Made by a program: the position numbers and the translations under genes. Under the pieces are notes generated by a model. That model ran no database searches, had not been told where the DNA came from, and saw only the letters and a program-made list of their open reading frames with translations. A stretch of DNA of 64,000 nt from Pseudomonadota bacterium (GTDB lineage Bacteria; Desulfobacterota; Binatia; Binatales; Binataceae): positions 1 to 64,000 of the forward strand of contig JAJPKP010000018.1 in the NCBI GenBank assembly GCA_021323675.1, given 5' to 3'. This document shows positions 11,696 through 35,994 of the stretch, one piece after another (the stretch's first letter is position 1; each line of letters starts with the position of its first letter).

Positions 11696-13975
11696 ATGGC
11701 GCGCCGGCCGATGCTGATTTCTCGTTGGTGGTTGCAGGGAGCGATCCTGACCTACCTGTTCGGATTCCTCGTCCTCGGCATCCTCGCCTACATGACCTAC
11801 TCCGACGAGCCGCCGCTTCCGGCGCGAATGGTTACGCAAAGCGGCGACGTCCTGTTTACATCGCGAGACGTCATGGACGGGATGCATGTGTTCGAACGCT
11901 ACGGGCTGATGGAATACGGCACCGTGTACGGTCATGGGGCGTACCTGGGGCCGGACTTCACCGCTCAGTATCTGCATCGCGAAGCCGAGTCGCTCGTTCA
12001 ATCTTACGAGAATGCCGCGGGCGCGACGCAATCGGCCGCCGCTCGCGTCGCTGAAGAGTTGCATCGCAACACCTACGATCCCGGCACGGGAACGGTGACC
12101 GTCAGTGACGCGCGCGGCGCCGCGTTCGTAGAGCTGCGCGGCTATTATGAGCGGATGTTCGGGGCGAGTTCCTCGGAATCGGGATTGCAGGCGCATTCGA
12201 TCGCCGACCGCGCCGATATCGACAAGCTCGCCGATTTCTTCGCGTGGACGGCGTGGACGGCGGCGGCGGATCGCCCCGGCCGCGATTATTCTTACACCAA
12301 CAACTGGCCGCCCGAACCTTTGGCCGGCAACTCAGTCACCGCCGATGCGGTTGCGTGGAGCGTCATATCGATCATCTTCCTGCTGGGCGGGATGGGAATC
12401 GTGCTGTTTTTCTTCGGGCGCTATGACTGGCTCGGATGGACCGAGAGCGCGGCTGAGATCAGGTTTCTGCCGGTCGAGACGGTGGGTCTGACACCCGCAC
12501 AGCGGGTGGTCGTATGGTATCTGCTGGTGACTTCCGCGCTGTTCGTTTTGCAAACGCTGGTTGGCGGGCTCACCGCGCACTACCGGGCGGAACCGTCGAA
12601 CTTCTTCGGTTTCGACATTTCGGCGCTGATTCCCTACAACCTCGCGAGGACCTGGCACGTCCAGCTCGCGATTTTCTGGGTTGCGACTTCATATCTCGCG
12701 GCGGGTATCTTCCTCGCACCGCTCATCTCGGGCCACGAGCCGAAGGGACAGGCGGCGCTGTCGGTGGTTTTGCTGGGCGCGCTGGCGATAGTGGTCTTCG
12801 GCAGCATGGCGGGAGAATACGCGAGCATCAGGGGATGGTTGACCAAAGGATGGTTCTGGCTGGGCGATCAGGGATGGGAATATCTCGACCTCGGGCGGCT
12901 CTGGCAGGTGCTGCTGATAGCCGGCCTGGTGCTGTGGGTGGTTATCTTGTGGCGTGGATTGCGCCGAAAGCTCGCTACGGAATCATTCGGAAATCTCCCC
13001 TGGTTGCTGCTCTACGCCGCGCTCGCGATCCCCGGCTTCTATGCGGTAGGACTGCTGGCCAGCCCAAACAGCGGATTCGTCGTGATTGATTTCTGGCGAT
13101 TCTGGGTAGTCCATCTGTGGGTCGAGGACTTCCTTGAACTGTTCACCACCGTAGTGGTTGCCTACCTGTTTGTCTTGCTTGGGACGGTGCGCGAGAGCAC
13201 CGCGATTCGCGTCATCTACCTCGACATTATTCTCTATTCAGTCGGCGGCGTGATCGGGACGATGCACCATCTTTACTTCAGCGGCACACCCGCCGCGCAC
13301 ATGGCGCTGGGCGCCGCCTTCTCGGCGATGGAAGTGATTCCGCTGCTGCTGCTCACTCTGGAGGCCTGGGCGTTCATACGCTCCGGCGAGCGTTCGATGG
13401 CTCCGAACGAGCATCCCCATCGCTGGGCCGTATGGTTCCTGATCGCGACCGGCCTATGGAATTTTCTCGGCGCCGGGGTGTTCGGTTTCCTGATCAACCT
13501 GCCGGTGGTGAGTTACTACGAGATCGGAACCGGCCTGACCGCCAATCATGCGCATACCGCGATGATGGGTGTTTACGGGATGCTGGCTGTGGGGTTGCTG
13601 CTGTTTTGCCTCAGGTATCAGATGCGTCCCGAGGCGTGGAGCGACCGGCTGGCCGGCATCTCGTTCTGGTCATTGAATCTCGGCCTTGCGTGGATGGCCT
13701 TTTGCAATCTGTTTCCGGTTGGGATCGTTCAGCTCTACGACGCGGTGAAAGTAGGTTATTGGCACGCGCGTGCCGCCGCATTTATCGAGACACCCTGGGT
13801 GCATGCGCTCGAATGGCTGCGGCTGCCGGGCGACGTGCTGTTCATCGTGGGTGGCGCGCTGCCGCTCCTGGTTCTATGCGTCCGCGGCGTGATCTATCCG
13901 AGTGCGGCGCGCGTGTCGGGCGAACAGGTTTCAACGCGGCTCTTTACCGCGGAAGTTGAACGAGATGTCGCATGA
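11696..13975 (+). CDS. norZ: Quinol-dependent nitric oxide reductase, single-subunit (qNor)
   Basis: This 759-residue membrane protein has about fourteen helices. A large N-terminal extracytoplasmic domain (residues 40-215) replaces the cytochrome c subunit of cNor. The catalytic features are conserved: VVHLWVEDFLELFTT, MHHLYFSGTP carrying the paired non-haem iron histidines, and SAMEVIPLLLL with the expected Glu. The haem ligands lie in TWHVQLAIFW and TANHAHTAMMG. The paired histidines and the Glu argue for ordinary NO reduction (2 NO to N2O) over the NO dismutase variant, in which these positions change. ATG 11696 is preceded by a good AGGAGA. The gene lies 127 bases after the phosphorylase gene and probably has its own promoter. 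Confidence 0.93.
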   Translation: MARRPMLISRWWLQGAILTYLFGFLVLGILAYMTYSDEPPLPARMVTQSGDVLFTSRDVMDGMHVFERYGLMEYGTVYGHGAYLGPDFTAQYLHREAESLVQSYENAAGATQSAAARVAEELHRNTYDPGTGTVTVSDARGAAFVELRGYYERMFGASSSESGLQAHSIADRADIDKLADFFAWTAWTAAADRPGRDYSYTNNWPPEPLAGNSVTADAVAWSVISIIFLLGGMGIVLFFFGRYDWLGWTESAAEIRFLPVETVGLTPAQRVVVWYLLVTSALFVLQTLVGGLTAHYRAEPSNFFGFDISALIPYNLARTWHVQLAIFWVATSYLAAGIFLAPLISGHEPKGQAALSVVLLGALAIVVFGSMAGEYASIRGWLTKGWFWLGDQGWEYLDLGRLWQVLLIAGLVLWVVILWRGLRRKLATESFGNLPWLLLYAALAIPGFYAVGLLASPNSGFVVIDFWRFWVVHLWVEDFLELFTTVVVAYLFVLLGTVRESTAIRVIYLDIILYSVGGVIGTMHHLYFSGTPAAHMALGAAFSAMEVIPLLLLTLEAWAFIRSGERSMAPNEHPHRWAVWFLIATGLWNFLGAGVFGFLINLPVVSYYEIGTGLTANHAHTAMMGVYGMLAVGLLLFCLRYQMRPEAWSDRLAGISFWSLNLGLAWMAFCNLFPVGIVQLYDAVKVGYWHARAAAFIETPWVHALEWLRLPGDVLFIVGGALPLLVLCVRGVIYPSAARVSGEQVSTRLFTAEVERDVA

Positions 13976-14472: not shown

Positions 14473-15195
14473 TCACGGGGGCAGAGACAGATTCCGTTCC
14501 GCTCTTGAAAGCGCCGCGAAAATTGCTTCGCGCGTGGGCGCCGTCATCAGGGTCCGCAGGGTTTCGGGCCGCGCGCACATCTGCGGAAGTTTCGCCAGCC
14601 ACGGAAGATGCAACTCGTGAAACTTCAGGCCGAGAACGAAGAACAGATGGGTCAGGCCGCCGTCCAGCGCATCGAAATCGACGCCGCCGCGCGATCGCCC
14701 CAATACCATGAATGGCTTGAAAACCTGCTCGGGATGCCGCTGCAGGGTGTGAAGGAATGCGATGCCGTTGCCGGTGGCGCTCGGCATTACGTTCTCGCGC
14801 TCGATGAGCGCGCCGACGAACCAGGTTTTGTCGCGGACGAGCTTGAGGCTCATGGCCAGCGCGGCCAGTTCCTCGATTACCCCGGTCTTCGTGGTCGCGC
14901 GCAGCTCAGGAATTATGTGGGTCGGCTGAAAACAACTGTCCAGCGTGAGCAGGCGGCGCGGCACCGGTTTGGCCGGATTAACCTCGGGCTGCGGCGGTGT
15001 CACCCCCAGCATCTGATCGTCGAGCCAGGTGTCCAGCATCGCCTTGCGAAAGCGCCACTGGTTTCCGATTTTGACGCCGGGAAGTGCTCCTTCCGCGACG
15101 AGTTTCAGCACCGTCCTTTCATTCACGTTCAGGTATGCCGCGACCTGCCGCACCGTCATCAGATGATCGGTTATCGGCGCCGCTGCCTGGGTCAT
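14473..15195 (-). CDS. Excisionase-type HTH fused to a PTS EIIA(Ntr)-like domain
   Basis: This protein of about 240 residues has two domains. Residues 8-60 form an excisionase/MerR-like helix-turn-helix (LMTVRQVAAYLNVNERTVLKL, then PGVKIGNQWRFRKAMLDTWL, quoted in parts: LMTVRQVAAYLNV, GVKIGNQWRFRK). From about residue 90 there is a PtsN/EIIA-fructose-like fold with NGIAFLHT, where the His matches the phosphorylation site of GIAIPH motifs. That makes it a candidate phosphorylation-sensing DNA-binding protein. ATG 15195 has AAGGTCAGGA just upstream; a GTG at 15216 would add seven residues. It is divergent from the Ehr-like operon, so control of that operon is plausible but unproven. Confidence 0.8.
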   Translation of the reverse strand: MTQAAAPITDHLMTVRQVAAYLNVNERTVLKLVAEGALPGVKIGNQWRFRKAMLDTWLDDQMLGVTPPQPEVNPAKPVPRRLLTLDSCFQPTHIIPELRATTKTGVIEELAALAMSLKLVRDKTWFVGALIERENVMPSATGNGIAFLHTLQRHPEQVFKPFMVLGRSRGGVDFDALDGGLTHLFFVLGLKFHELHLPWLAKLPQMCARPETLRTLMTAPTREAIFAALSRAERNLSLPP

Positions 15196-15623
15196 TTTCC
15201 TGACCTTGTTTGACACCGACCTAGTATTACGTCAGATTACCTAGAACTGCAATTGTTTACGTTCAAATGCATTCCCGATTTGAGACCCTTCGCCTTCGGC
15301 CTGTAGAACGGCTCGGCAAGCTCCCGATTAATCCTCTCCCGGCGACGGTTGGAACGGCCGGGACCGCATGCGGGATGCGCAATCGTGTCAGTCGCAGGAT
15401 GTCGATGCGCTGCTAGGCCGCTTTACAAGTCTATCGGGACATTCGAGCCTCACCTTCCAGTCGTCAGAGTATGTTTTTGCAGCTTTTCTTCGAATCAAGC
15501 GATTCAAAGCCCGGATCGCCGCTCGCCGCCGGAGAGTCCGGCGATCCGATCCGGTCTCAATTCGGTACCACCTCGCGAGTTCGCGGCGCGAAGGCGCAGC
15601 CAGCCACGGGTAGTTTCTAAACC
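15196..15623. other. Divergent control region between the HTH-EIIA gene and the Ehr-like operon
   Basis: This 428-base gap holds no convincing gene. The 70 bases next to the regulator gene are AT-rich compared with the rest of the window and contain the promoter-like and repeat elements listed separately. The half nearer the operon is GC-rich, and I found no sigma-54 or FNR-type site in it. Confidence 0.6.
15219..15266 (-). promoter_or_regulatory. Candidate promoter with ACCTAG/ATTAC direct repeats
   Basis: Read on the minus strand, TTGAAC (15266-15261) is followed after 17 bases by TAGGTA (15243-15238), a plausible -35/-10 pair about 40 bases upstream of the HTH-EIIA start. On the plus strand ACCTAG occurs at 15219-15224 and 15239-15244, exactly 20 bases apart. 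ATTAC occurs at 15226-15230 and 15236-15240, ten bases apart. Repeats on the same helix face that overlap the -10 suggest an operator, perhaps for autoregulation. The assignment is tentative. Confidence 0.35.
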
Positions 15624-17591
15624 GTGGCCGGTCTCTTGCTTTCGATAGCGCTCTTTGGCGCCGGCGCTGCGGGCGCGCTTATCTTCGCCAATCATGGCCG
15701 TTGGACCACTTATGCGGGAGTCGGCGGTGTGGTGGCTGGATGCGCGGTTGGGATAGTGCCCGCGCTTCGCGCCGCCCTCGGTGGGCCTGTCGAGTCAATT
15801 CATGCCGGATGGGCGGTGCCATACGGCAGCTTTTTCTTGCGGCTTGACGCGTTGTCGGGATTCTTCCTGCTGCCGGTGTTCGCGATCTGTCCGCTCGCGG
15901 CGATCTATGGAGCTGGCTACCTGGAAGCGTTTCGTCCAAAGAAGTCGCTTGCGCCTCCCTGGTTCCTGTTCAACTTGCTGGCCGCCAGCATGGCCATGGT
16001 CATCGTCGCGCGAAACGGACTCCTGTTTCTGGCCGCGTGGGAGATGATGGCGCTGTCGTCGCTGTTCCTGGTTACATTCGAGGATGAGAAGGAAGAGGTG
16101 CGGCGTGCGGGATGGATCTATCTGGTTGCCAGTCATGCCGGAACCGCGTTTTTGTTCGCGCTTTTCATCCTGCTCGGACGCGCTCACGGTTCGCTGGACT
16201 TCGATCGCTTTGATGCGTCCGCGGGGACGGGCCTGCTCTTCGCGCTTGCGCTGATTGGGTTTGGAACCAAGGCGGGATTCGTTCCGCTCCACGTATGGCT
16301 GCCGCAAGCGCATCCGGCCGCTCCGAGCCACGTCTCAGCCGTGATGTCGGCGGTGATGATCAACACCGGCATCTACGGATTGTTGAGAGTGTTCACGCTG
16401 ATCGGGCCGCTGCCCGCGTGGTGCGGATGGCTCCTGTGCGTGGTCGGAATTCTGTCCGCGCTCACCGGCGCGCTACACGCGCTGGCGCAGCGCGACTTGA
16501 AGCGCCTGCTGGCGTACAGCTCGGTCGAAAATGCGGGAATAATCGCGCTTGGGATCGGCGTCGGCCTAATCGGAATTGCGTCGAAGAGTCCGCTGGTGGC
16601 CTGCGCCGGATTTGCCGGCGGGCTGCTTCACTTGCTCAACCACTCCCTTTTCAAAAGCCTGCTGTTCCTGACCGCCGGCGCGGTCGTGCACGGGTCGCAC
16701 ACGCGCGATCTTGACCGGCTTGGCGGGCTTCTCAAACGGATGCCGGTTACGGGCGTTCTGTTCGCGGTCGGAGCCGTGGCGGTTTCAGCATTGCCGCCGC
16801 TCAACGGCCTGATCGGCGAGTTTCTCGTTTATCTTGCGAGCTTGAGAGGGATCGCGGAATTCGACGGCGGCGGCCTGACGGTTCTGGTCTCCGCGTTTGC
16901 CGCGCTGGCGGCCGCCGGGGGATTTGCCGCGGTTGCTTTTGCAAAGGCCTTTGGCATCGCCTTTCTGGGCCATCCGCGCAGCGAATCGGCGGAGCATGCC
17001 AGAGACCCCGGATGGACGATGCTCGCGCCCGCGACGGTGCTGGCGGCGGCGTGCGCGCTTGCGGGAAGCTTCGGCGCACGGCTGGTTGCCGCCATCGCGC
17101 CACTGATCGCGAGCATCACCGGGATGCCCGATGCGAAGAGCTATCTGAGCGGCGCCGCAAATGCGGTCGCGCACGTTGCATTCGTGGGTGGAGCACTGGC
17201 CGGAATCTCACTGGTGGTTATGGCGGCGCGCTCGCGCCTGCTGGCAGGCCGAAAAGTCCGATCGGCGCTGACGTGGGATTGCGGTTACTACCGGCCGGCG
17301 CCGCGGATGCAGTACACGGGCTCGTCATTTGTTCAACCGCTGACGGCTGCGTTCGCCGCGGTACTCGGAACCCGAATCCGCGTGATCGAGCCGCGCGGTC
17401 TGTTCCCATCCGATGCGAGCCTCACGACCGAAGCGCGCGATCCTTATCAGGACCGGCTGTTTGCGTCCTTGTTCGGAGCGATCGGCCGCGGACTCTCGAT
17501 GCTGCGGCCGCTTCAACAGGGGCTGGTTCAACTTTACGTCCTGTACATCGCGATCACGCTGATCGCGCTTTTACTCTGGCAGTTCGCCTGA
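15624..17591 (+). CDS. hyfB: HyfB/HycC-type proton-translocating antiporter-like subunit
   Basis: This 655-residue membrane protein of the NuoL/MrpA family has about sixteen helices. The expected proton-path residues are present: the Glu of WEMMALSSLF, the Lys of GFGTKAGFVPLHVWLP and the segment HLLNHSLFKSLLF. A C-terminal extension contains TWDCGYYRP and RMQYTGSSF, which is typical of HyfB/HycC and not of NuoL. It starts with GTG and no clear ribosome-binding site. It opens a six-gene operon with only small gaps or overlaps, which forms the membrane and peripheral arms of an Ehr-like complex. Confidence 0.9.
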   Translation: MAGLLLSIALFGAGAAGALIFANHGRWTTYAGVGGVVAGCAVGIVPALRAALGGPVESIHAGWAVPYGSFFLRLDALSGFFLLPVFAICPLAAIYGAGYLEAFRPKKSLAPPWFLFNLLAASMAMVIVARNGLLFLAAWEMMALSSLFLVTFEDEKEEVRRAGWIYLVASHAGTAFLFALFILLGRAHGSLDFDRFDASAGTGLLFALALIGFGTKAGFVPLHVWLPQAHPAAPSHVSAVMSAVMINTGIYGLLRVFTLIGPLPAWCGWLLCVVGILSALTGALHALAQRDLKRLLAYSSVENAGIIALGIGVGLIGIASKSPLVACAGFAGGLLHLLNHSLFKSLLFLTAGAVVHGSHTRDLDRLGGLLKRMPVTGVLFAVGAVAVSALPPLNGLIGEFLVYLASLRGIAEFDGGGLTVLVSAFAALAAAGGFAAVAFAKAFGIAFLGHPRSESAEHARDPGWTMLAPATVLAAACALAGSFGARLVAAIAPLIASITGMPDAKSYLSGAANAVAHVAFVGGALAGISLVVMAARSRLLAGRKVRSALTWDCGYYRPAPRMQYTGSSFVQPLTAAFAAVLGTRIRVIEPRGLFPSDASLTTEARDPYQDRLFASLFGAIGRGLSMLRPLQQGLVQLYVLYIAITLIALLLWQFA

Positions 17592-17594
17592 CCC

Positions 17595-18506
17595 ATGAAG
17601 CCGCAGTCCGCATTTCCGCTTCTTCTCGCGATCGCACTGGCGCCGATGGTGCAGGGAATCATCAATCGAACGAAAGCGATCGTGGCGGGCAGGGCGGGTC
17701 AGCCGCTGATGCAACCCTATCTTGACCTGGCCAAACTGCTTCGCAAGGGAGCGGTCTACAGCGAAACCGCGTCATGGGTGTTTCGGACCGCCCCGGCGGT
17801 CGGACTTTCCGCGATCATCTGCGCGGGAGCGCTGATCCCCTTCGCTGCCTTTCCATCGCTTACGCACTTCGGCGGCGATCTGGTTCTCCTTGGCTATCTT
17901 CTGGCGCTGGGCCGCTTTGCCATAGTCCTCGGCGCGCTCGACACCGGCTCCAGTTTTGAGGGGATGGGCGCAAGCCGGGAGATAGCCTTTGCCGCACTGG
18001 CGGAAGCGCCGCTGTTTCTCGCGCTTGCTGCGATTGTGCGCGAAACCGGCTCGCTTTCGCTCACGCCAGCGCTCGGGGCGGTCTCTATCAACGTGTGGAA
18101 CCACGCGGCTCCATCGATGTGCCTGACAATCGGGGCATTGCTGATCGTGTTTCTCACCGAGAATGCGCGAATTCCAGTGGACGACCCGACTACGCATCTC
18201 GAACTCACGATGATTCACGAAGTCATGGTGCTCGATCATAGCGGCCCGGACTTCGCGATAGTCCAGTACTCGGCGGCGCTCAAGATGTGGTTTCTCGGCG
18301 CAATCATCGTGGCGATCGCCGTTCCGTGGCACGTCGGGAATGCGTTGGCCGATGCGGCATGCGCCCTTGCCGGAATCGCGGCGCTGGGAATTGTGACCGG
18401 GCTTATCGAGGCATCGATGGCGCGGCTCAGGCTGTTGCGCGTCCCGACTCTGCTTCTCACCGCCGCAATGCTTTCGGCGCTGGCATTCGTGATGGTCGCG
18501 AAGTGA
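17595..18506 (+). CDS. hyfC: HyfC/HycD-type (NuoH-like) membrane subunit
   Basis: This 303-residue protein of the NuoH family has about eight helices. It carries GRAGQPLMQPYLDLAKLL near the N-terminus and ENARIPVDDPTTHLELTMIHE in the second half (quoted in parts: IPVDDPTTHLEL, MIHEVMVLDHSG). The acidic residues of this loop line the quinone chamber in complex I and couple the peripheral arm to the membrane arm. The gene starts three bases after hyfB. Conservation of the loop suggests that redox-proton coupling is kept even though the NiFe site downstream is altered. Confidence 0.92.
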   Translation: MKPQSAFPLLLAIALAPMVQGIINRTKAIVAGRAGQPLMQPYLDLAKLLRKGAVYSETASWVFRTAPAVGLSAIICAGALIPFAAFPSLTHFGGDLVLLGYLLALGRFAIVLGALDTGSSFEGMGASREIAFAALAEAPLFLALAAIVRETGSLSLTPALGAVSINVWNHAAPSMCLTIGALLIVFLTENARIPVDDPTTHLELTMIHEVMVLDHSGPDFAIVQYSAALKMWFLGAIIVAIAVPWHVGNALADAACALAGIAALGIVTGLIEASMARLRLLRVPTLLLTAAMLSALAFVMVAK

Positions 18507-18510
18507 AGCG

Positions 18511-19161
18511 ATGAACCAGGTTATCGATTCCATCCTGATTCTTCTGACGCTGACGGGCTTTGTCCTGTTGGGGTCGAGCAGGCTGGCCGCCTGTATCAAG
18601 GCCGTGGGTATTCAGGGAGCGCTGCTCGGATTGCTTGCGCTGGTTGTGCAAAGCGGCGACCTCTCGATAACCGGCGTGGTGCTTGCGCTGATTGGCGCGA
18701 CGGTCAAAGGCATTCTGCTGCCGGTGTTGTTGTTCCGCGCGATGCGGGAGGCGGACACGACTCGCGAAGTCGAGCCGCTGATCAGCTTCAATCTGTCGGT
18801 TCTGGCAGGCGCCCTCGAGCTCGCGATGTCGCTCTGGATTGGACGCCATCTGCGGCTTCCAGCGGACCCGGTTTCATCGTTCTTTGTGCCGGCCGCGATA
18901 TTCACCATCCTCGCCGGATTGCTCGTGATAGTAAGCCGGCGCAAAGCGATTACCCAGGTAATTGGATATCTGATGCTTGAAAACGGCGTGTATGTGTTTG
19001 GTACCGCGGTCGCCCTGCGGATGCCGGTGCTGGTGGAGCTGGGCATCCTGCTCGACGTCTTCGTCGGGGTGTTTGTGATGGGCATCGCGGTGTTCCACAT
19101 CAGCCGGCAATTTGACCATATCGATTCTCTGCGGCTCGCAAGCCTGAACGATCGCGTCTGA
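18511..19161 (+). CDS. hyfE: HyfE-type membrane subunit (NuoK-like)
   Basis: This 216-residue hydrophobic protein has six to seven predicted helices, matching HyfE, which combines a NuoK-like core with extra helices. Features include LLGSSRLAACIKAVGIQGALLG at residues 17-38 (in parts: SSRLAACIKAVGIQ) and a later VIGYLMLENGVYVFG with the Glu of the NuoK-type channel. It begins four bases after hyfC, and its last base is shared with the hyfF start codon. It is a structural and proton-path component of the complex and has no redox cofactor. Confidence 0.9.
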   Translation: MNQVIDSILILLTLTGFVLLGSSRLAACIKAVGIQGALLGLLALVVQSGDLSITGVVLALIGATVKGILLPVLLFRAMREADTTREVEPLISFNLSVLAGALELAMSLWIGRHLRLPADPVSSFFVPAAIFTILAGLLVIVSRRKAITQVIGYLMLENGVYVFGTAVALRMPVLVELGILLDVFVGVFVMGIAVFHISRQFDHIDSLRLASLNDRV

Positions 19162-20633
19162 TGCTGCTTGCCTTGATACTGCTGCCGGCCGCCGCCGGCC
19201 TTGTCTGCCTGCTGATCGCGTCGGACCCCGCGCGTCGCGCGATTTTGATCGTGACCGCCGCTCTCGAGGCCGCGCTCTCGATCGCGACATGGGTGAACGC
19301 TCCGCCTGCTCAGTTCGGCGGCTGGCTTGCAGAAGATGCCCTGGGGCGGTTGTTCGTAACGCTGACGAGCGTGCTGTTTCTGGCGTGCAGCGTTTATGCG
19401 GTTGCCTATTTGCGCGAGGAGCGCGAGAAAGTCCATTCCGATATCGAGGAAGGGTTCTTCTTTTCCAACGCGCGAGAGGCCAGCTTCACCGGTTGCCTGT
19501 TATTGTTCCTTTCGGCCATGTCGCTGGTCGCCCTAAGCCAGCATCTGGCGCTGCTGTGGGTGGCGGTCGAAGCGACCACGCTGGCAAGCGCTCCTTTGAT
19601 TTACTTCCACCGCCATCATCGTTCTCTCGAGGCGACCTGGAAATACCTTCTGATTTGTTCGGTTGGAATCGCGCTCGCGCTGCTGGGTGTGTTTTTCCTG
19701 GCGGTCGCCGCGATCAGGCCCGGGGACAACGCCGTATCGCTGATCCTCGCCGATCTGCTCAAGGACGCGCCGCGACTGAATGCGATCTGGCTTAAGGCCG
19801 CATTCGTGCTGATGCTGGTGGGGTACGGATCGAAGATGGGGCTGGCGCCGTTTCACACCTGGCTTCCCGATGCGCACAGCGAAGCTCCGTCGGTCGCATC
19901 CGCTCTGCTGTCCGGAGCGCTGCTCAATTGCGCATTCCTGGGGATCCTGCGAGCGCACGAGGTCTGTATTGCCGGCGGCCTGGGAGCTTTCAGTGGCGGT
20001 CTTTTGCTCGGCTTCGGGTTGCTTTCGATGGGAGTGGCGGCAGCCTTCATCGTCGGCCAGAGCGATTACAAGCGGATGCTCGCCTACTCAAGCGTCGAGC
20101 ACATGGGCATCCTCGCGGTCGGCGCGGGAATTGGCGGCGCCGCCGCATTCGGCGCGATTCTTCATGTGGTCGGTCATTCGTTCGCCAAGGCGATGCTGTT
20201 CATGGTCGCGGGCAATCTGCTCGCGGTGTACCGCACCAAGACCAGCAACGACGTCTCGGGCGCGCTGAGAATAGTTCCGGTTTCGGGACTGCTGTGGATG
20301 CTTGGCATTCTGGCGATTATCGGCGCGCCGCCGTTTGGTCCGTTTCTGAGCGAATTCGTGATTCTGAAGGCCGCGCTGGATCAGGGTCGCAACTTTGTCG
20401 CGATGGCGTACCTGGCGGTGCTCGCGATTGTCGTGGCCGGAATGTCGGCGCCGGCGATGGCGATGGCGTACGGCCGCCCGCGAACTGGCGGCACGGAACC
20501 GGTGCGCCAAAGCATCGTGTTCAGCGCTGTTCCTGCCCTCTGCTGTGCCGCCATTCTCGTGATCGGAATCTACCTGCCACCAGTACTGAACCGCTCGCTG
20601 CATGAGGCGGCGCACCTGTTCAGCCGAGGCTGA
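19161..20633 (+). CDS. hyfF: HyfF-type (NuoM/N-like) antiporter-like subunit
   Basis: This 490-residue protein is the second antiporter-like subunit of the operon. It contains the Glu of WVAVEATTLAS, the Lys of GYGSKMGLAPFHTWLPDAH and HVVGHSFAKAMLF, the canonical polar axis of NuoM/N proteins. The late segment PPFGPFLSEFVILKAAL is typical of HyfF. Two antiporter-like subunits (HyfB and HyfF) and no HyfD-like third make this a compact group-4-type membrane arm. It overlaps hyfE by one base and precedes the large-subunit gene by one base. Confidence 0.92.
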   Translation: MLLALILLPAAAGLVCLLIASDPARRAILIVTAALEAALSIATWVNAPPAQFGGWLAEDALGRLFVTLTSVLFLACSVYAVAYLREEREKVHSDIEEGFFFSNAREASFTGCLLLFLSAMSLVALSQHLALLWVAVEATTLASAPLIYFHRHHRSLEATWKYLLICSVGIALALLGVFFLAVAAIRPGDNAVSLILADLLKDAPRLNAIWLKAAFVLMLVGYGSKMGLAPFHTWLPDAHSEAPSVASALLSGALLNCAFLGILRAHEVCIAGGLGAFSGGLLLGFGLLSMGVAAAFIVGQSDYKRMLAYSSVEHMGILAVGAGIGGAAAFGAILHVVGHSFAKAMLFMVAGNLLAVYRTKTSNDVSGALRIVPVSGLLWMLGILAIIGAPPFGPFLSEFVILKAALDQGRNFVAMAYLAVLAIVVAGMSAPAMAMAYGRPRTGGTEPVRQSIVFSAVPALCCAAILVIGIYLPPVLNRSLHEAAHLFSRG

Positions 20634-20634
20634 G

Positions 20635-22137
20635 ATGTCCTCATCGAGCCCATCGTTCCACGCCGCCGAAGCAATACCGCTGGCAAACGTTCCGGAGTTG
20701 CGGATGCCCGAGTTCAGGGATGCGGTCGTATCCTCCGTGAACGGCGGCGCTTCGCTGTCCGCGCTGCTTGGCCGCCAACGCGACGGCCGATACCTTGAAT
20801 TGCTAGCGGTGCTGGCGAATGCGGCCACTGGCCGCCTGTCGATCGTCCGCACCACGGCGGACGGCGCATATCCGTGCCTCACGCTCGATTGTCCGCAGGC
20901 GCATTGGTTTGAGCGGGAAATCGCCGAGCAATGGGGCGCCATCCCGGAAGGCCATCCGTGGCTGAAGCCGATTCGCTTCCATGCTCTCCACCGCAACGGA
21001 GTGGTCGCGGAAGCGCCGGCGCCTGGTGTAACCAACTTTTTCTCGATGCGCGGCGAGGAAGTTCACGAAGTCGCGGTGGGCCCCGTGCATGCGGGGATCA
21101 TTGAGCCCGGACACTTCCGGTTTCAATGCCACGGCGAACGCGTTTTCCATCTGGAGATCGCGCTCGGCTACCAGCATCGGGGAGTCGAGCGCGCGCTGGC
21201 GAGCGGGCCTGACAAGCGCACCATCCATCTTGCCGAGACGCTATGCGGCGACACGACGGTCGGGCATACAACCGCGTATTGCGAAGCACTTGAGGCATTG
21301 AGCGATACGCAGGTTCCTCCCGCCGGTCAGGTGTTGCGCGGCGTCGCGCTCGAATTGGAGCGGATGGCAAATCATTGCGGAGACCTTGGCGCGCTGGCGG
21401 GCGACGTCGGCTATCTCCCCAGCGCAGCTTACTTCGGCCGAATCCGCGGAGATTTTCTCAACCTCACGGCGATGCTCTGTGGGAGCAGGTTCGGCCGGGG
21501 GATGATACGGCCAGGGGGAGTTGGATTCGGGCTCGCTCGCGATCGGACAGCGGAGTTCCTTAAACGACTGAAGGATGCTTTCCGCGATCTGTCCGATGCG
21601 GCCGTTCAGCTTTGGGATCGTCCTTCGGTTCAGGCAAGGTTTGAGGACACCGGTCCAGTGTCCCGCGAGGATTGCATCGCGCTCGGTCTCGTTGGTCCGG
21701 CCGCACGCGCATGCGGGATAGAGCGAGACGTTCGGCGCGACTTTCCCAGCGGAATCTTCCGGTCGGTACAGATTCCGGTTTCCAAATGGGACAGTGGCGA
21801 CGTGTTCGCGCGCGCGTGGGTGCGATGGCTGGAGATCCAGCGATCGGAAACGTTTGTACGTGAGCAAATTGCCTCGCTTCCCGGCGGATCGGAACTGGAG
21901 CGCCCGGGGCCTCTGCGTCCGAATCATCTGGCGGTGGCGATGGTGGAAGGATGGCGCGGAGAAATCTGCCACGTTGCAATCACCGATTCGCAGGGAAGCT
22001 TCGCCCACTACAAGGTCGTCGACCCATCGTTTCACAATTGGATGGGCCTGGCGCTGGCGATGCGTGGCCAACAGATCTCCGACTTTCCGCTGTGCAACAA
22101 GAGCTTCAATCTCTCGTATTGCGGCCACGATCTTTGA
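20635..22137 (+). CDS. Ehr-type large subunit (HyfG/NuoCD-like) with degenerate NiFe site
   Basis: This 500-residue protein has an N-terminal NuoC-like part (WFEREIAEQWGAIPEGHPW, in parts: WFEREIAEQWG) and a C-terminal HyfG/NuoD-like part. In NiFe hydrogenases the first metal motif reads CGxC; here it reads CGDT, with Cys204 kept and the second ligand Thr207. The second motif, normally DPCxxC, is replaced by FNLSYCGHDL at the extreme C-terminus, leaving only Cys496 and a displaced Cys487. The NiFe centre therefore cannot form normally. The fold and operon are those of group 4 hydrogenases, so this is an energy-converting hydrogenase-related subunit. ATG 20635 is used; an in-frame ATG at 20602 lies inside hyfF. 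Confidence 0.85.
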   Translation: MSSSSPSFHAAEAIPLANVPELRMPEFRDAVVSSVNGGASLSALLGRQRDGRYLELLAVLANAATGRLSIVRTTADGAYPCLTLDCPQAHWFEREIAEQWGAIPEGHPWLKPIRFHALHRNGVVAEAPAPGVTNFFSMRGEEVHEVAVGPVHAGIIEPGHFRFQCHGERVFHLEIALGYQHRGVERALASGPDKRTIHLAETLCGDTTVGHTTAYCEALEALSDTQVPPAGQVLRGVALELERMANHCGDLGALAGDVGYLPSAAYFGRIRGDFLNLTAMLCGSRFGRGMIRPGGVGFGLARDRTAEFLKRLKDAFRDLSDAAVQLWDRPSVQARFEDTGPVSREDCIALGLVGPAARACGIERDVRRDFPSGIFRSVQIPVSKWDSGDVFARAWVRWLEIQRSETFVREQIASLPGGSELERPGPLRPNHLAVAMVEGWRGEICHVAITDSQGSFAHYKVVDPSFHNWMGLALAMRGQQISDFPLCNKSFNLSYCGHDL

Positions 22138-22146
22138 GGAGCGCAC

Positions 22147-22914
22147 TTGTCCAGTCTCATCTTCACTCGAATACGGCAGGGTAAACGCACAATCCCGTTT
22201 CCCGAGGTTGAGCCGGCGCTGCCGGAGAGATTTCGCGGAATTCCCGAGATCGATTCCTCGCTTTGCGTTTCCGGGTGTTCCGCGTGCGCGGAGGTTTGCC
22301 CGACCGATGCGATTTCTCACGGCGCGGCGGTGAAACTTGACCTTGGCAGATGCCTATTCTGCCCGGAGTGCGCCATCGCGTGCCCCCAACAGGCGATTCA
22401 TCCGGGAAACGATTACCGGATGGCCGCAAATCGGCGAGAAGATCTGATCCTCACCGGCGCCGAAACTCCAAAGCTCGCGCGCCGCATGGCGGATGAGCTT
22501 TATCGCGTCCTGGGTCGATCGCTTAAGCTCCGGCAGGTAAGCGCCGGCGGATGCAACGCGTGCGAAGCGGATGTCAACGTGCTCAACACGGTAGTGTTCG
22601 ACCTGGGACGTTTCGGAATTCAATTCGTCGCCTCTCCGCGGCACGCCGACGGCCTTCTGATCACTGGTCCGGTCACGCGCAACATGCTGGCCGCGCTGGA
22701 AAAAACTCACGACGCGGTCCCCGATCCGAAGGTCGTGATAGCGGTCGGGGCCTGCGCGATTTCCGGCGGACCATTTCGCGGCCATCCGGAAACCGTGGGG
22801 CCCGCTGACCGCATCCTGCCGGTGGATCTCTTCGTTCCGGGCTGTCCCCCGCATCCGGTTACGATTCTGGACGGATTGTTGCGGCTGGTCGGGCGAATAC
22901 GCGACTCAGCCTGA
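22147..22914 (+). CDS. Ferredoxin-NuoB fusion: 2[4Fe-4S] domain plus small subunit of the Ehr-like complex
   Basis: This 255-residue protein fuses a HyfH-like ferredoxin and a HyfI/NuoB-like small subunit. The first cluster motif is CVSGCSACAEVCP (spacing C-x3-C-x2-C-x3-CP, one residue longer than usual). The second is CLFCPECAIACP. The NuoB part from about residue 130 keeps GGCNACE, GACAISGG and VPGCPP, the four ligands of the proximal N2-type cluster. Electrons from a ferredoxin or partner could run through these three clusters to the quinone-facing site. It has a TTG start ten bases after the large subunit and ends the operon. Confidence 0.9.
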   Translation: MSSLIFTRIRQGKRTIPFPEVEPALPERFRGIPEIDSSLCVSGCSACAEVCPTDAISHGAAVKLDLGRCLFCPECAIACPQQAIHPGNDYRMAANRREDLILTGAETPKLARRMADELYRVLGRSLKLRQVSAGGCNACEADVNVLNTVVFDLGRFGIQFVASPRHADGLLITGPVTRNMLAALEKTHDAVPDPKVVIAVGACAISGGPFRGHPETVGPADRILPVDLFVPGCPPHPVTILDGLLRLVGRIRDSA

Positions 22915-33002: not shown

Positions 33003-35495
33003 TTACCACCCGCGTCCAACCTCGCGCGCGACTGGTTCATCGAGACCTGAAAGGCGTAGCTTTTGGTGGCCCAGGGGCGGATTGCCGGAACTTTCCGCTC
33101 CCGCAACGACTGTAGGCGCCGAATCATAAAGCAGATAGGCGGACCGCAACCATTCGAATCTGTGCAGCGACGGCTGCCAGCGCGCGGCGATCGATCGCGG
33201 ATCCTCGTCGGACTTGATTTCATTCAGGACCTCGGCCGATCCCACCATCGCGAGCGTCGAGTCCGTATCGAAAGTGTCCGGGTACAAATGGCGGAGTGCG
33301 GCGATTAGCTCGATTCCGAGCCTCGGAGAATCGAGTGCATCACGGTCTTCCACGATGATTCTTGATCCTTTGCACGTGCGGCCGGCGTAATGATCACCAA
33401 CGGGCGCGAACGCTGCGGGCTCGAACCGCACCCCGGCAATCCCCCGATGGTTCAGGTAGTCTGTCAGTTGGTTCGCATCTGCCCACGGCGCGCCGACCAG
33501 CTCGAATGGCGTTGCAGTGCCGCGCCCGACGCTCACGTTCGCGCCTTCCGCCATCGCGACACCAGGATAAAGCACGGCCTCCGAAAGAGTTCTGAGATTC
33601 GGCGAGGGGGGAATCCACTTGAGTCCGGTTGCGTCGTACCACTCGCCGCGATGATACCCGCGCATCTCGATCACATGCAGGCGAGCGCCGATTCGTTTCT
33701 CGCGATTGAACATCCCTGCCAATTCGCCCGCGGTCATTCCGTGGCGCGTGGGCAGGGGAAAGTAACCGGTGAACGATGTGCGATTCGCGTCGAGCACGGG
33801 TCCCTGCACGACGGCGGCTGATATAGGATTCGGGCGGTCGAGAACATAAAAATCGATTCCGCGCCGCGCCGCCGCCTCCATCGCGTACGCCATCGTGGTC
33901 ATATACGTGTAGAAGCGCGCGCCCGAGTCTTGAACATCGAAGACAAGCGCATCGATGCCTTCGAGCATCGCGTCGCTGGGATGCGTTAATCGTCCGTAGA
34001 GGCTGAAGAGCGGCAGCCCCGTGCGCGGCTCGACTCCGGATGCGGCCGCATCGTCAACATCGCCGTAAAGGCCGTGCTCGGGACTGAAGATTGCACTCAA
34101 CTTCACGTTCGGCGCTCGCGAGAACGCATCGATGTCGCTGATGCCCGCGCGCGTCACGCCGGTTTGATTTGTAATGAGCCCGACCCGCTTGCCGTTCATT
34201 TCGACAAATCCGTCGGCGACGAGCACATCGGCACCGCTTGCCACGTTCGACTCCGGCAATCGCGGCCGGCCGGGCGACGGGCAATATGGCCTCAGTTCCG
34301 GACGCTCGGTGATGAGTTCCTGTTCGGAGACCGGCGCAAGCTGGTCCGCAACCAGCGCGAGAAGCTTCTTTCGCAGCGGGCCCGCATCGCCGCGGCCATC
34401 CGGATAGGTTCGATTGGTGAGAACGATCACCCAGGTACTGGACAGCGGATCGATCCACAGCATCGTTCCGGTGAAGCCCGTGTGTCCGTAGGAGCCTACC
34501 GGGGGCAGTTGGTCGCGGTTGGGAGCGAACGGCGCCGCGAGATCCCATCCAAGACCGCGCAACCGTGCCGCTCCCGCGGGCGTGCGGGGGATTGTCATCT
34601 CATCGATGGCGTGGCGGCTCAGAACACAAGCGCGATTCGGGGCGGACGCGTCAAGCATCGCGCGGGCAAAGGCCGCCAGATCGTCTGCGGTCGAGAATAG
34701 ACCCGCGTGTCCGGCAACTCCTCCCATCCGCGCGGCCGTCGGATCGTGCGGCACACCCACGCGAAGCTTGCCGTTGACAAAGAGTGTAGGGGCGATGCGC
34801 GGATACACGGATGGGGGCGGGTCGAAGCCGGTATCGTTCATGCGCAGCGGACCGAAGATGTGCTTGCGGCAATACGAATCGAGCGGCGTTCCGGAAACGC
34901 GCCTTACAACTTCGCCGAGTGTTTCAAAATTTATGTCGCTGTATTCGTAATGTGAGCCCGGTGGATAATCGGGATGCGCAGCCTCGATCATTTTCATCGC
35001 GCTGCGGTAGCCGGTCCATCCAGCACTCAAATCGAGGTCGGCCTTCAGCCCCGAGTAGTGAGTCATCAACTGGCGGATCGTGATGCCGCTTTTGCCGTAT
35101 CGGCCGAATGCCGGCCAGTAGCGCGCCGCCGGAGCGTCGAGGTCGAGCTTTCCGGCGTCGGCGAGCTGCATGATCGCGACGGTGGTGGCGACGACCTTGG
35201 TCAATGACGCGAGATCGAAGACGGTGTCCGGCGTCATCGCGACGCGGCTCGGCGCCAACTCCCGATAACCGAACGCTCGCCGGTAAACCGCGTGATCGCT
35301 CTGGCCGATCTCGATGACCGCGCCGGGAATTCTGCCCGCCTCGATTTCGCTTTGGACAATACTGTCGATCGGCGACAATGCGGCCGCAGTCAGCGCCGGC
35401 GAGAAGCGGGCGCTCGCGAGCCCCGGCGCCGCCATCACCATAAGCAGCGCGACGATAATGCCGCCTCGCCAACCGATGATCGACGGCCTGGTCAC
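33003..35495 (-). CDS. Secreted fusion of class C beta-lactamase-like hydrolase and NamZ-type muramidase (DUF1343)
   Basis: This protein of about 830 residues begins with a signal sequence (IIVALLMVMAAPGLASA). Domain 1 (about residues 40-400) is a serine beta-lactamase/esterase fold with SLTK, YSD and HTG motifs. Domain 2 (about 430-830) is NamZ-like: LITNQTGV, FSPEHGLYG, VFDVQDSGARFYTY and LDRPNPI. NamZ releases MurNAc from the non-reducing ends of peptidoglycan fragments. In Bacillus the equivalent proteins are encoded by neighbouring genes, so the fusion supports a joint role in cell-wall recycling. The start is uncertain: GTG 35495 fits the signal peptide, while ATG 35618 would overlap the nitroreductase gene. 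Confidence 0.85.
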   Translation of the reverse strand: MTRPSIIGWRGGIIVALLMVMAAPGLASARFSPALTAAALSPIDSIVQSEIEAGRIPGAVIEIGQSDHAVYRRAFGYRELAPSRVAMTPDTVFDLASLTKVVATTVAIMQLADAGKLDLDAPAARYWPAFGRYGKSGITIRQLMTHYSGLKADLDLSAGWTGYRSAMKMIEAAHPDYPPGSHYEYSDINFETLGEVVRRVSGTPLDSYCRKHIFGPLRMNDTGFDPPPSVYPRIAPTLFVNGKLRVGVPHDPTAARMGGVAGHAGLFSTADDLAAFARAMLDASAPNRACVLSRHAIDEMTIPRTPAGAARLRGLGWDLAAPFAPNRDQLPPVGSYGHTGFTGTMLWIDPLSSTWVIVLTNRTYPDGRGDAGPLRKKLLALVADQLAPVSEQELITERPELRPYCPSPGRPRLPESNVASGADVLVADGFVEMNGKRVGLITNQTGVTRAGISDIDAFSRAPNVKLSAIFSPEHGLYGDVDDAAASGVEPRTGLPLFSLYGRLTHPSDAMLEGIDALVFDVQDSGARFYTYMTTMAYAMEAAARRGIDFYVLDRPNPISAAVVQGPVLDANRTSFTGYFPLPTRHGMTAGELAGMFNREKRIGARLHVIEMRGYHRGEWYDATGLKWIPPSPNLRTLSEAVLYPGVAMAEGANVSVGRGTATPFELVGAPWADANQLTDYLNHRGIAGVRFEPAAFAPVGDHYAGRTCKGSRIIVEDRDALDSPRLGIELIAALRHLYPDTFDTDSTLAMVGSAEVLNEIKSDEDPRSIAARWQPSLHRFEWLRSAYLLYDSAPTVVAGAESSGNPPLGHQKLRLSGLDEPVAREVGRGW

Positions 35496-35529
35496 GACAG
35501 GGATTGTATCATTGCGGAGTTGGTCGAGG

Positions 35530-35994
35530 TCACTCGGCGGGGTAGCCGATCGGAAGCAGGGCAACGGGCCGCCAGTCGGATTGAATTTCCTTGCGGAAGA
35601 TCGCTTTGACCTCATCATCTCCGAACGCGCCGACCCAGCATCCGGCGAGCCCCGAGGCTACCGCTTGAAGCCACGCGAAGCTGGCGGCGATGGTCGCGTC
35701 CTGGATGCAGTAGAGGTCGCGGCCGCGCGATCCGTATTTTGCGGCGGATCGTGAGGGCACGGCCCAGAAAACGAGAACGACGGGCGCCTGCGCCACGAAA
35801 TCCTGGCCGAATGCGGCGCGAGCAAGTCTCCGCTTTATTTCGCCGTCGGCGATAACGTGAATTTCGCGCGCCTTGAGACCGCCGGCGGAAGGCGCGGTGT
35901 TTATCGCATCGAGGATCTCAGCCAGCGTTTCCATCGTGACTCCACGCGGTTGGAAACTCCTGACGGAGTGCCGCTTGTTGAAAACGTCGAGCAT
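35530..35994 (-). CDS. Nitroreductase-family flavoprotein (short form)
   Basis: This 154-residue protein begins with KRHSVRSFQP, the FMN-binding start of the nitroreductase fold. It contains INTAPSAGGLKAREI and DATIAASFAWLQAVASGLAGCWVGAF, typical for dimeric NAD(P)H-dependent FMN oxidoreductases. It is shorter than the common 180-220 residues. The final PIGYPAE matches the usual C-terminal motif, so it is complete. The substrate is unknown. Confidence 0.9.
   Translation of the reverse strand: MLDVFNKRHSVRSFQPRGVTMETLAEILDAINTAPSAGGLKAREIHVIADGEIKRRLARAAFGQDFVAQAPVVLVFWAVPSRSAAKYGSRGRDLYCIQDATIAASFAWLQAVASGLAGCWVGAFGDDEVKAIFRKEIQSDWRPVALLPIGYPAE

Follow-up and report, generated by a model that had tools for sequence, protein, structure and literature searches.

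The window analysed here, a 64,000-nucleotide stretch of a Binataceae genome (GCA_021323675.1, contig JAJPKP010000018.1, positions 1 to 64,000), carries six open reading frames (ORFs) that lie close-packed and head to tail on the forward strand at 15624–22914 and were assigned with Pfam and NCBIfam to HyfB-, HyfC-, HyfE-, HyfF-, HyfG- and fused (HyfH+HyfI)-like subunits (Table 1). An earlier note, made from the DNA alone, had described them as a group 4 hydrogenase/complex I module of the energy-converting hydrogenase-related (Ehr) type that has lost most ligands of its nickel-iron (NiFe) centre. Both family libraries agree with the module assignment, and the cluster is a true Ehr complex rather than a hydrogenase: group 4/complex I subunits are encoded together, the set of NiFe cysteines is incomplete, and the large subunit groups with the Geobacter complex. 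All listed NCBIfam Hyf/Hyc models scored under their cut-offs for the cluster proteins (for the HyfB-like protein, NF005086, hydrogenase 4 subunit B, gave 554 bits with a cut-off of 667), and one general NuoB subfamily model scored over its cut-off for the HyfH+HyfI (HI) fusion. No HyfA-, HyfD-, FdhF-, HyfJ/HycI- or activator-like gene was recognised in the cluster, and no NuoEFG NADH module among its six genes or the annotated flanking genes. The source genome (4.59 Mb, 87 contigs, 94.8% complete) encodes three PF00346 proteins, namely the Ehr large subunit and two complex I subunits (contigs C75 and C81).

Table 1 Features of the Ehr locus in the window.
Feature	Position	Strand	Evidence or remark
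HTH_17 + PTS_EIIA_2 regulator gene, 247 amino acids, divergent from Ehr	14473..15216	-	PF00359 80 bits, PF12728 57 bits
HyfB/EhrA-like antiporter-type membrane subunit, 655 amino acids, GTG start	15624..17591	+	PF00361 175 bits; NF005086 554 bits
HyfC/NuoH-like membrane anchor, 303 amino acids	17595..18506	+	PF00146 (NADHdh) 109 bits
HyfE-like (NuoK-like) membrane subunit, 216 amino acids	18511..19161	+	NF008556 80 bits, PF00420 20 bits, both under cut-off
HyfF-like antiporter-type membrane subunit, 490 amino acids	19161..20633	+	PF00361 (Proton_antipo_M) 161 bits
HyfG/EhrL-like large subunit, Complex1_30kDa + Complex1_49kDa fusion, 511 amino acids	20602..22137	+	Pfam, NCBIfam
Former CGxC ligand loop, now C215-G216-D217-T218	21244..21255	+	87-row alignment
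C-terminal tail C498-NKSFNLSYCGHDL in place of DPCxxC	22093..22134	+	stop codon directly after
HyfH+HyfI (EhrS-like) fusion, Fer4 [4Fe-4S] + NuoB-like proximal-cluster domain, 255 amino acids, TTG start	22147..22914	+	PF01058 103 bits, Fer4 families

The large subunit and its lost NiFe ligands

Large-subunit residues are numbered from the upstream ATG at 20602, although the 500-amino-acid protein starting at ATG 20635 is likelier than the 511-amino-acid one. When the window protein is aligned with Escherichia coli HycE and HyfG, ligand positions 215/218/505/508 read C/T/S/G, such that three of the four NiFe-ligand cysteines are gone and only Cys215 remains. The CGDT reading of the CGxC motif in the earlier note is thus confirmed (its Thr207, counted from ATG 20635, is Thr218 here), as is the replacement of DPCxxC, the tail being aligned opposite HycE SLDPCYSCTDR, in line with the note's view that no normal NiFe centre can form. 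Across 87 family rows, position 215 is Ala in 75, Ser in 9 and Cys in 3, and position 218 is Thr in 77, Ser in 9 and Ala in 1; Gly216 and Asp217 between them are present in 87/87, and a cysteine at 218, 505 or 508 in 0/87. In the tail, the former ligand positions Ser505 and Gly508 are shared by all 87 rows, together with Tyr506, Asp510 and Leu511, while Cys498 is kept in 84 (Asn in 3) and Cys507 in 85 (Ala in 2). The nearest 120 relatives (the best 120 of 8000 scored protein-database matches) end in SFNLSYCGHDL in 117 cases and in a one-letter variant in 2, the last being incomplete at its end; these last 11 residues lay outside the word set, which covered the first 500 residues, and they agree with the 87 rows. 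Being kept over many phyla, the pattern of ligand loss is not due to chance.

E. coli Hyd-4 (Hyf) and FHL-1 (Hyc) share with the window complex the homologues of HyfB, C, E, F, G, H and I, the proton-path residues and a large subunit that is a 30 kDa + 49 kDa fusion, but they have four cysteine ligands and a C-terminal peptide that is cleaved. In contrast, the window protein stops at the end point of mature HycE (the alignment of the two ends at model residue 509 on chain residue 537), leaving no peptide to cleave, and has neither the CGxC plus DPCxxC ligand set nor the extension for a maturation protease that characterise group 4 [NiFe] hydrogenases. Modelling, which the earlier note had proposed for the site, succeeded for the fold but not for the tail: an AlphaFold model from 95 sequences was good overall, with HycE (7z0s_E) as its best fold match, but reached a mean predicted local distance difference test (pLDDT) score of only 46 for residues 501–510. 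A previous model from 10 sequences was poor (pLDDT 59.6) and was set aside.

Ehr relatives and phylogeny

Scanning GTDB species genomes with the patterns PVHAG[IV]IE and CNKSFNLS confirmed at least 568 related stretches, and the 80 loci among the matches listed show 53–65% identity and come from many phyla. In the 87-row set, 84 rows hold the first pattern, 83 the second and 4 the first without the second, and conservation at these two stretches is partly a product of selection by pattern. The gene order B-C-E-F-G-HI recurs, with few exceptions, wherever the contig is long enough. In a 41-row tree, of the kind suggested as a check in the earlier note, the 27 Ehr rows fall into a single clade (100/100), distinct from HycE/HyfG, Ech/MbhL and NuoD, which supports Ehr-type over hydrogenase identity; the clade includes Geobacter argillaceus (L073), the row standing for Geobacter in a tree that does not include G. 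sulfurreducens. Its sister is another NiFe-less clade, from other members of the host family (94/89), a relation that is unsure as the long branches of Ehr, this second clade and NuoD meet.

The window Ehr belongs to an already named complex type, and Geobacter is the source of the name: its Ehr complex (EhrA-EhrS) was reportedly named in Coppi 2005 and is said to be reviewed in Marreiros 2013. The same kinds of subunit are found in both, the large subunit of each is without NiFe ligands, and rows from Geobacter (L073, L114) and Geomonas (L097, L108) belong to the family of the window complex. The window has one hyfB-like gene, whereas some related loci, such as Pelobacter L084 and Geomonas L108, have two; overall this holds for 12/70 loci (L042, L051, L061, L066, L071, L077, L084, L085, L103, L108, L112 and L113), where the second gene would add one antiporter-type module to the membrane arm and so make it longer.

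Several further arrangements were observed among the relatives. The second NiFe-less Hyf-like complex is present in 5/22 other host-family members (L036, L037, L014–L017, L019), two of the five genomes being judged by frame length and score only, and no genome in the host-family list (22 others) has it together with a window-type Ehr. At L036:6931-14540 and L037:6552-14223 its large subunit of about 530 amino acids has the ligand loops SATS/SGTS and TFALSVHENDR, and the L036 small subunit has also lost the fourth proximal-cluster cysteine (VAGNPP). A Verrucomicrobia locus (L098:4345-19446) has two Ehr-like clusters in tandem, the second large subunit being far more divergent (532 versus 781 bits); L033:10796-12928 joins HyfE-like and HyfF-like proteins in one 710-amino-acid frame, a natural fusion in genome G003; and a Phycisphaerales locus has, beside its Ehr cluster, a second, Ech-type cluster whose large subunit reads CGIC (L050:18207-20900).

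Retained residues, selection and the electron acceptor

The Glu and Lys residues of HyfB and HyfF, the acidic residues of the NuoH-like subunit and the proximal (N2) cluster cysteines, all described as intact in the earlier note, are indeed kept. HyfB E140, K216 and K344 are found in 87/87 rows and E399 in 86/87 (the equivalent of K216 is Leu208 in E. coli HycC and Lys in E. coli HyfB), HyfF E137, K225, K304 and K343 in 83/83 rows, and the NuoH-like acidic residues in 81–84 of 84 rows. The HI fusion carries GGCNACE, GAC and PGC motifs with an intact proximal-cluster CxxC..C..C of hydrogenase-type CxxC spacing, and the motif GCxxC[ED] is present in 79/85 HI rows. Equivalences with HycE were taken from an alignment to the PDB chain minus 12 tag residues (inferred from 581 versus 569 amino acids), with residue roles in FHL from PMC9474812. 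HycE E193, the proton-delivering loop Glu of FHL (PMC9474812), corresponds by alignment to E168 of the Ehr large subunit, the canopy Arg R478 to R452, and H284, E437 and R395 to H258, E411 and R369, while S283 is replaced by N257, an Asn as in complex I. E168, R452, H258 and E411 are invariant in the 87 rows, and R369 and N503 are each kept in 86.

Conservation extends beyond these residues, with 81/511 large-subunit positions invariant across the 87 rows and ratios of non-synonymous to synonymous substitution (dN/dS) of 0.05–0.21 for 13 of the 14 pairs of closest sequences, the remaining value being undefined, in pairs that share sequences and in some of which dS exceeds 1. Judged from these comparisons, the large subunit is under purifying selection. 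The lost ligands might otherwise suggest a hydrogenase relic that no longer works and drifts as selection relaxes, and a 2026 paper describes Geobacter Ehr as 'already nonfunctional' and drifting, two ehr genes having acquired missense changes over 17 years on an anode (PMC13194489), but this explanation is highly improbable given the invariant positions across many phyla, the low dN/dS and the (nearly) invariant pump residues. Because of these three features, the complex does not look like a decaying one. In G. sulfurreducens, Ehr is also expressed, as its subunits were more abundant on formate than under H2-containing conditions (PMC7894505) and higher in syntrophic coculture (PMC8691401).

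The formate result is one of the points in favour of a pairing of Ehr with formate dehydrogenase (FDH), either as an FDH–Ehr respiratory unit, as proposed for Riflemargulisbacteria (PMC6349859), or for the production of H2 from formate, as has been suggested for G. sulfurreducens Ehr. We regard such a pairing as improbable, because H2 production is at odds with the ligand loss, seen likewise in the Geobacter rows L073 and L114, and because no formate-type neighbour family is recurrent. Neither formate dehydrogenase nor a HycB-like linker was found in the window cluster or its annotated flanks, nor as a recurrent neighbour family in the relatives, where, with the neighbours of 80 loci partly annotated by hidden Markov models, no family beyond the regulator described below, a kinase-like family and antisense ORFs occurs in more than 4/87 loci. 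The kinase-like family (cluster c8, 11 loci) has by eye the look of a histidine kinase; clusters c6, c7, c9 and c10 were rejected as recurrent genes, as their strand, position and composition showed them, again by eye, to be ORFs antisense to Ehr or the regulator.

The earlier note had inferred a proton- or sodium-coupled ferredoxin:quinone (or other acceptor) oxidoreductase; as a quinone-reducing ion pump, such a complex would resemble the NDH-1 core of cyanobacteria. Ehr has in common with complex I (NuoB, C, D, H, I, K, L/M/N) the core, the fold, the antiporter Glu/Lys residues, Asn257 and the position at which the large subunit ends. However, the window cluster has no NADH module, its proximal cluster has the hydrogenase-type CxxC and not the tandem CC found at N2 of complex I, and the quinone residues Tyr87 and His38 (Thermus Nqo4) fall on Gly216 and Ile167, leaving the quinone head-group residues of complex I/NDH-1 without counterpart. 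Genome content also weakens the quinone as obligatory acceptor. The genomes examined for HypD, quinone markers and enzyme I were 30 hand-picked from the 80 loci, together with relatives and the source genome. Of 31 Ehr genomes, MenD was over cut-off in 3 and MqnA/D in 13, and 15 had neither; in these 15, MqnC and UbiG were both over cut-off in 0/15, and the invariant pocket residues are the same as in quinone makers. As the sample was weighted towards fermentative-looking phyla, with some respirers as controls, 15/31 is not an estimate of prevalence. The marker-less genomes comprise Treponema UBA12037, Rectinema subterraneum, three Elusimicrobia, one Riflebacteria, three Omnitrophota and one each of Auribacterota, Lentisphaerae, Kiritimatiellae, Planctomycetes GWC2, Fibrobacteres and Zixibacteria. 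UbiA was tried and rejected as a quinone marker, being too broad (29/30), and MenD, MqnA/D, MqnC and UbiG were used in its place. A quinone is thus probably not the obligatory acceptor, within the limits of draft genomes and a hand-picked sample, and a ferredoxin:quinone oxidoreductase appears unlikely.

The search for hydrogenase maturation genes that the earlier note had proposed gave a mixed outcome in the source genome: HypD and HypF are present on contig C84, but they lie beside a separate, sulfhydrogenase-like group 3b large subunit, which confounds their link to Ehr. That region (C84 28000-47000, L029) encodes the group 3b-like [NiFe] large subunit, HypD and a 942-amino-acid frame in which a maturation-protease domain is fused to HypF. 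Of 36 further Ehr genomes, 21 showed HypD and 15 did not, and it is lacking in 4/6 of those with stated completeness (92–99%). Ehr thus seems able to do without the Hyp cofactor pathway.

A sulfur compound (polysulfide, persulfide or disulfide) would be another acceptor, with Ehr as a ferredoxin-fed, ion-pumping sulfur reductase similar to the archaeal membrane-bound sulfane reductase (MBS). MBS of Pyrococcus furiosus is likewise a NiFe-less, ferredoxin-fed group 4 relative with antiporter-like subunits, and has a solved structure and a proposed mechanism (PMC7684303); the near-invariance of the two tail cysteines, Cys498 and Cys507, also fits a sulfur substrate. We nevertheless consider this reading rather doubtful. 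MbsL keeps two ligand cysteines, and catalysis is proposed at a proximal cluster with a shortened, three-Cys motif (PMC7684303), whereas this motif is absent from the window protein, where the cluster is of hydrogenase type; the proton-donor loop Glu kept in Ehr is lacking in MBS, according to that paper; and each of the tail cysteines is replaced in a few of the 87 rows.

A regulator beside Ehr and the proposed function

Divergent from the window Ehr genes lies a gene for a regulator with a helix-turn-helix (HTH) domain and an EIIA domain of the phosphotransferase system (PTS). A homologue adjoins Ehr in 52 of the 70 loci whose first hyfB is complete, lying directly upstream in the same orientation in 45 (L098 being scored so on a 40-bit match), between B and C in 4 and divergent in 3 (window, L073 and L114); it is absent from 17/70 loci with at least 1 kb visible upstream, and 1 further locus, with less than 1 kb upstream, was not judged. 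The other 17/87 loci, whose first hyfB was cut or not recognised as complete, were left out of the count, and in two of them (L049 and L069) the regulator gene is found upstream. The profile, which was built from the same Ehr loci, gave 63 matches in or within 2.5 kb of Ehr clusters against 1 in the other 468 kb; run on the window and 187 kb of further sequence, it hit the window's own gene alone. The His aligned with the EIIA phospho-acceptor is present in 59/60 aligned copies. The window copy differs from that of most Ehr loci in its divergent position and in being of a second type (GIAFLH versus GIAIPH), shared with a divergent copy in L033, and matched only excisionase-type HTH families, weakly, in a PHROGs scan.

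PTS enzyme I (PF05524) was found in 36/37 Ehr genomes, the exception being Geothrix paludis, a regulator-less locus; as 7/8 tested genomes of regulator-less loci have it, enzyme I and the regulator are not strictly tied. Enzyme I frames in the host family are about 800 amino acids long, which we take to be the length of PtsP/EI-Ntr. We infer that Ehr expression is controlled by the PTS phosphorylation state via this regulator, which hints at when cells use Ehr; a literature search found no EIIA regulator beside Ehr named.

Elsewhere in the window, a NorB-like protein with COX1 and NorB cytochrome-c-like domains (11696-13975, +), likely a quinol-type nitric oxide reductase, adjoins the regulator gene; a cytochrome oxidase cluster, recognised by eye from translations, lies downstream and faces the Ehr genes; and an 871-amino-acid protein combines NamZ exo-muramidase domains with a serine hydrolase domain of the beta-lactamase family (33006-35618, -).

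On this sequence evidence we lean towards Ehr being a ferredoxin-fed H+ or Na+ pump in whose vacated NiFe pocket a small molecule, probably not a quinone, is reduced. Ferredoxin is the suggested donor because the cluster is without a flavin, NAD or formate module, and the retention of the MBH/FHL-type proton-donor Glu168 suggests that the substrate is reduced and protonated in the pocket. Ferredoxin would reduce the two predicted ferredoxin-type [4Fe-4S] clusters, from which electrons would pass to the proximal cluster and then to the acceptor; E168 and the R452/H258/E411 path would supply protons to the substrate, the invariant tail residues (SYxGxDL) and Asp217 would line the new substrate site, and the released energy would drive H+ or Na+ pumping by HyfB and HyfF. 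The EIIA-domain regulator would read the PTS phosphotransfer state and set ehr expression.

Several observations weigh against this proposal. On the donor side, a strict two-ferredoxin-cluster pattern matched 63/85 HI proteins and missed 22, and POR_N ferredoxin oxidoreductases, present in 36/37 relatives with or without Ehr, lend no support to a ferredoxin donor. In the pocket, the position of the tail would rest on the alignment, as the model cannot place it, and the HycE canopy Asp529, described as a strictly conserved residue of hydrogenases and complex I (PMC9474812), is Asn503 in Ehr, so the proton path may differ. As for the acceptor, the source genome itself holds MenD, most marker-less genomes are drafts without stated completeness from the hand-picked sample, and 14/15 have a UbiA-family prenyltransferase and may use quinone by an undescribed or scavenging route. 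MqnC is moreover an imperfect marker, since of 4 MqnA/D control genomes 2 pass, 1 lies at 426.6 versus 428.1 bits and 1 at 46, although the 15 marker-less genomes reach at most 50 bits. EhrL of Desulfotomaculum ruminis is reported with all four cysteines (PMC3569383), so the Ehr name may also cover true hydrogenases. A literature search found no experiment showing the donor or acceptor of Ehr, and no test of its reaction.

More tentatively, and with clearly less confidence than in the pump itself, Ehr may be a third, widespread outcome of the complex I superfamily, neither hydrogenase nor quinone reductase: a ferredoxin-driven pump with a new metal-free active site formed by Glu168, Asp217, Arg452 and the Ser-Tyr-Cys-Gly-x-Asp-Leu tail, a soluble metabolite as acceptor and a PTS-reading EIIA switch. 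Ehr is common and strongly conserved, and the present results narrow the question of its reaction to a complex that in appearance is no relic, is seemingly Hyp-independent and is probably quinone-independent. The old question of how a complex-I-like pump works without NiFe or a quinone site thereby becomes directly testable: the analysis offers target residues for mutagenesis, Rectinema subterraneum as a named strain that lacks quinone markers, and Geobacter as a host amenable to genetics.

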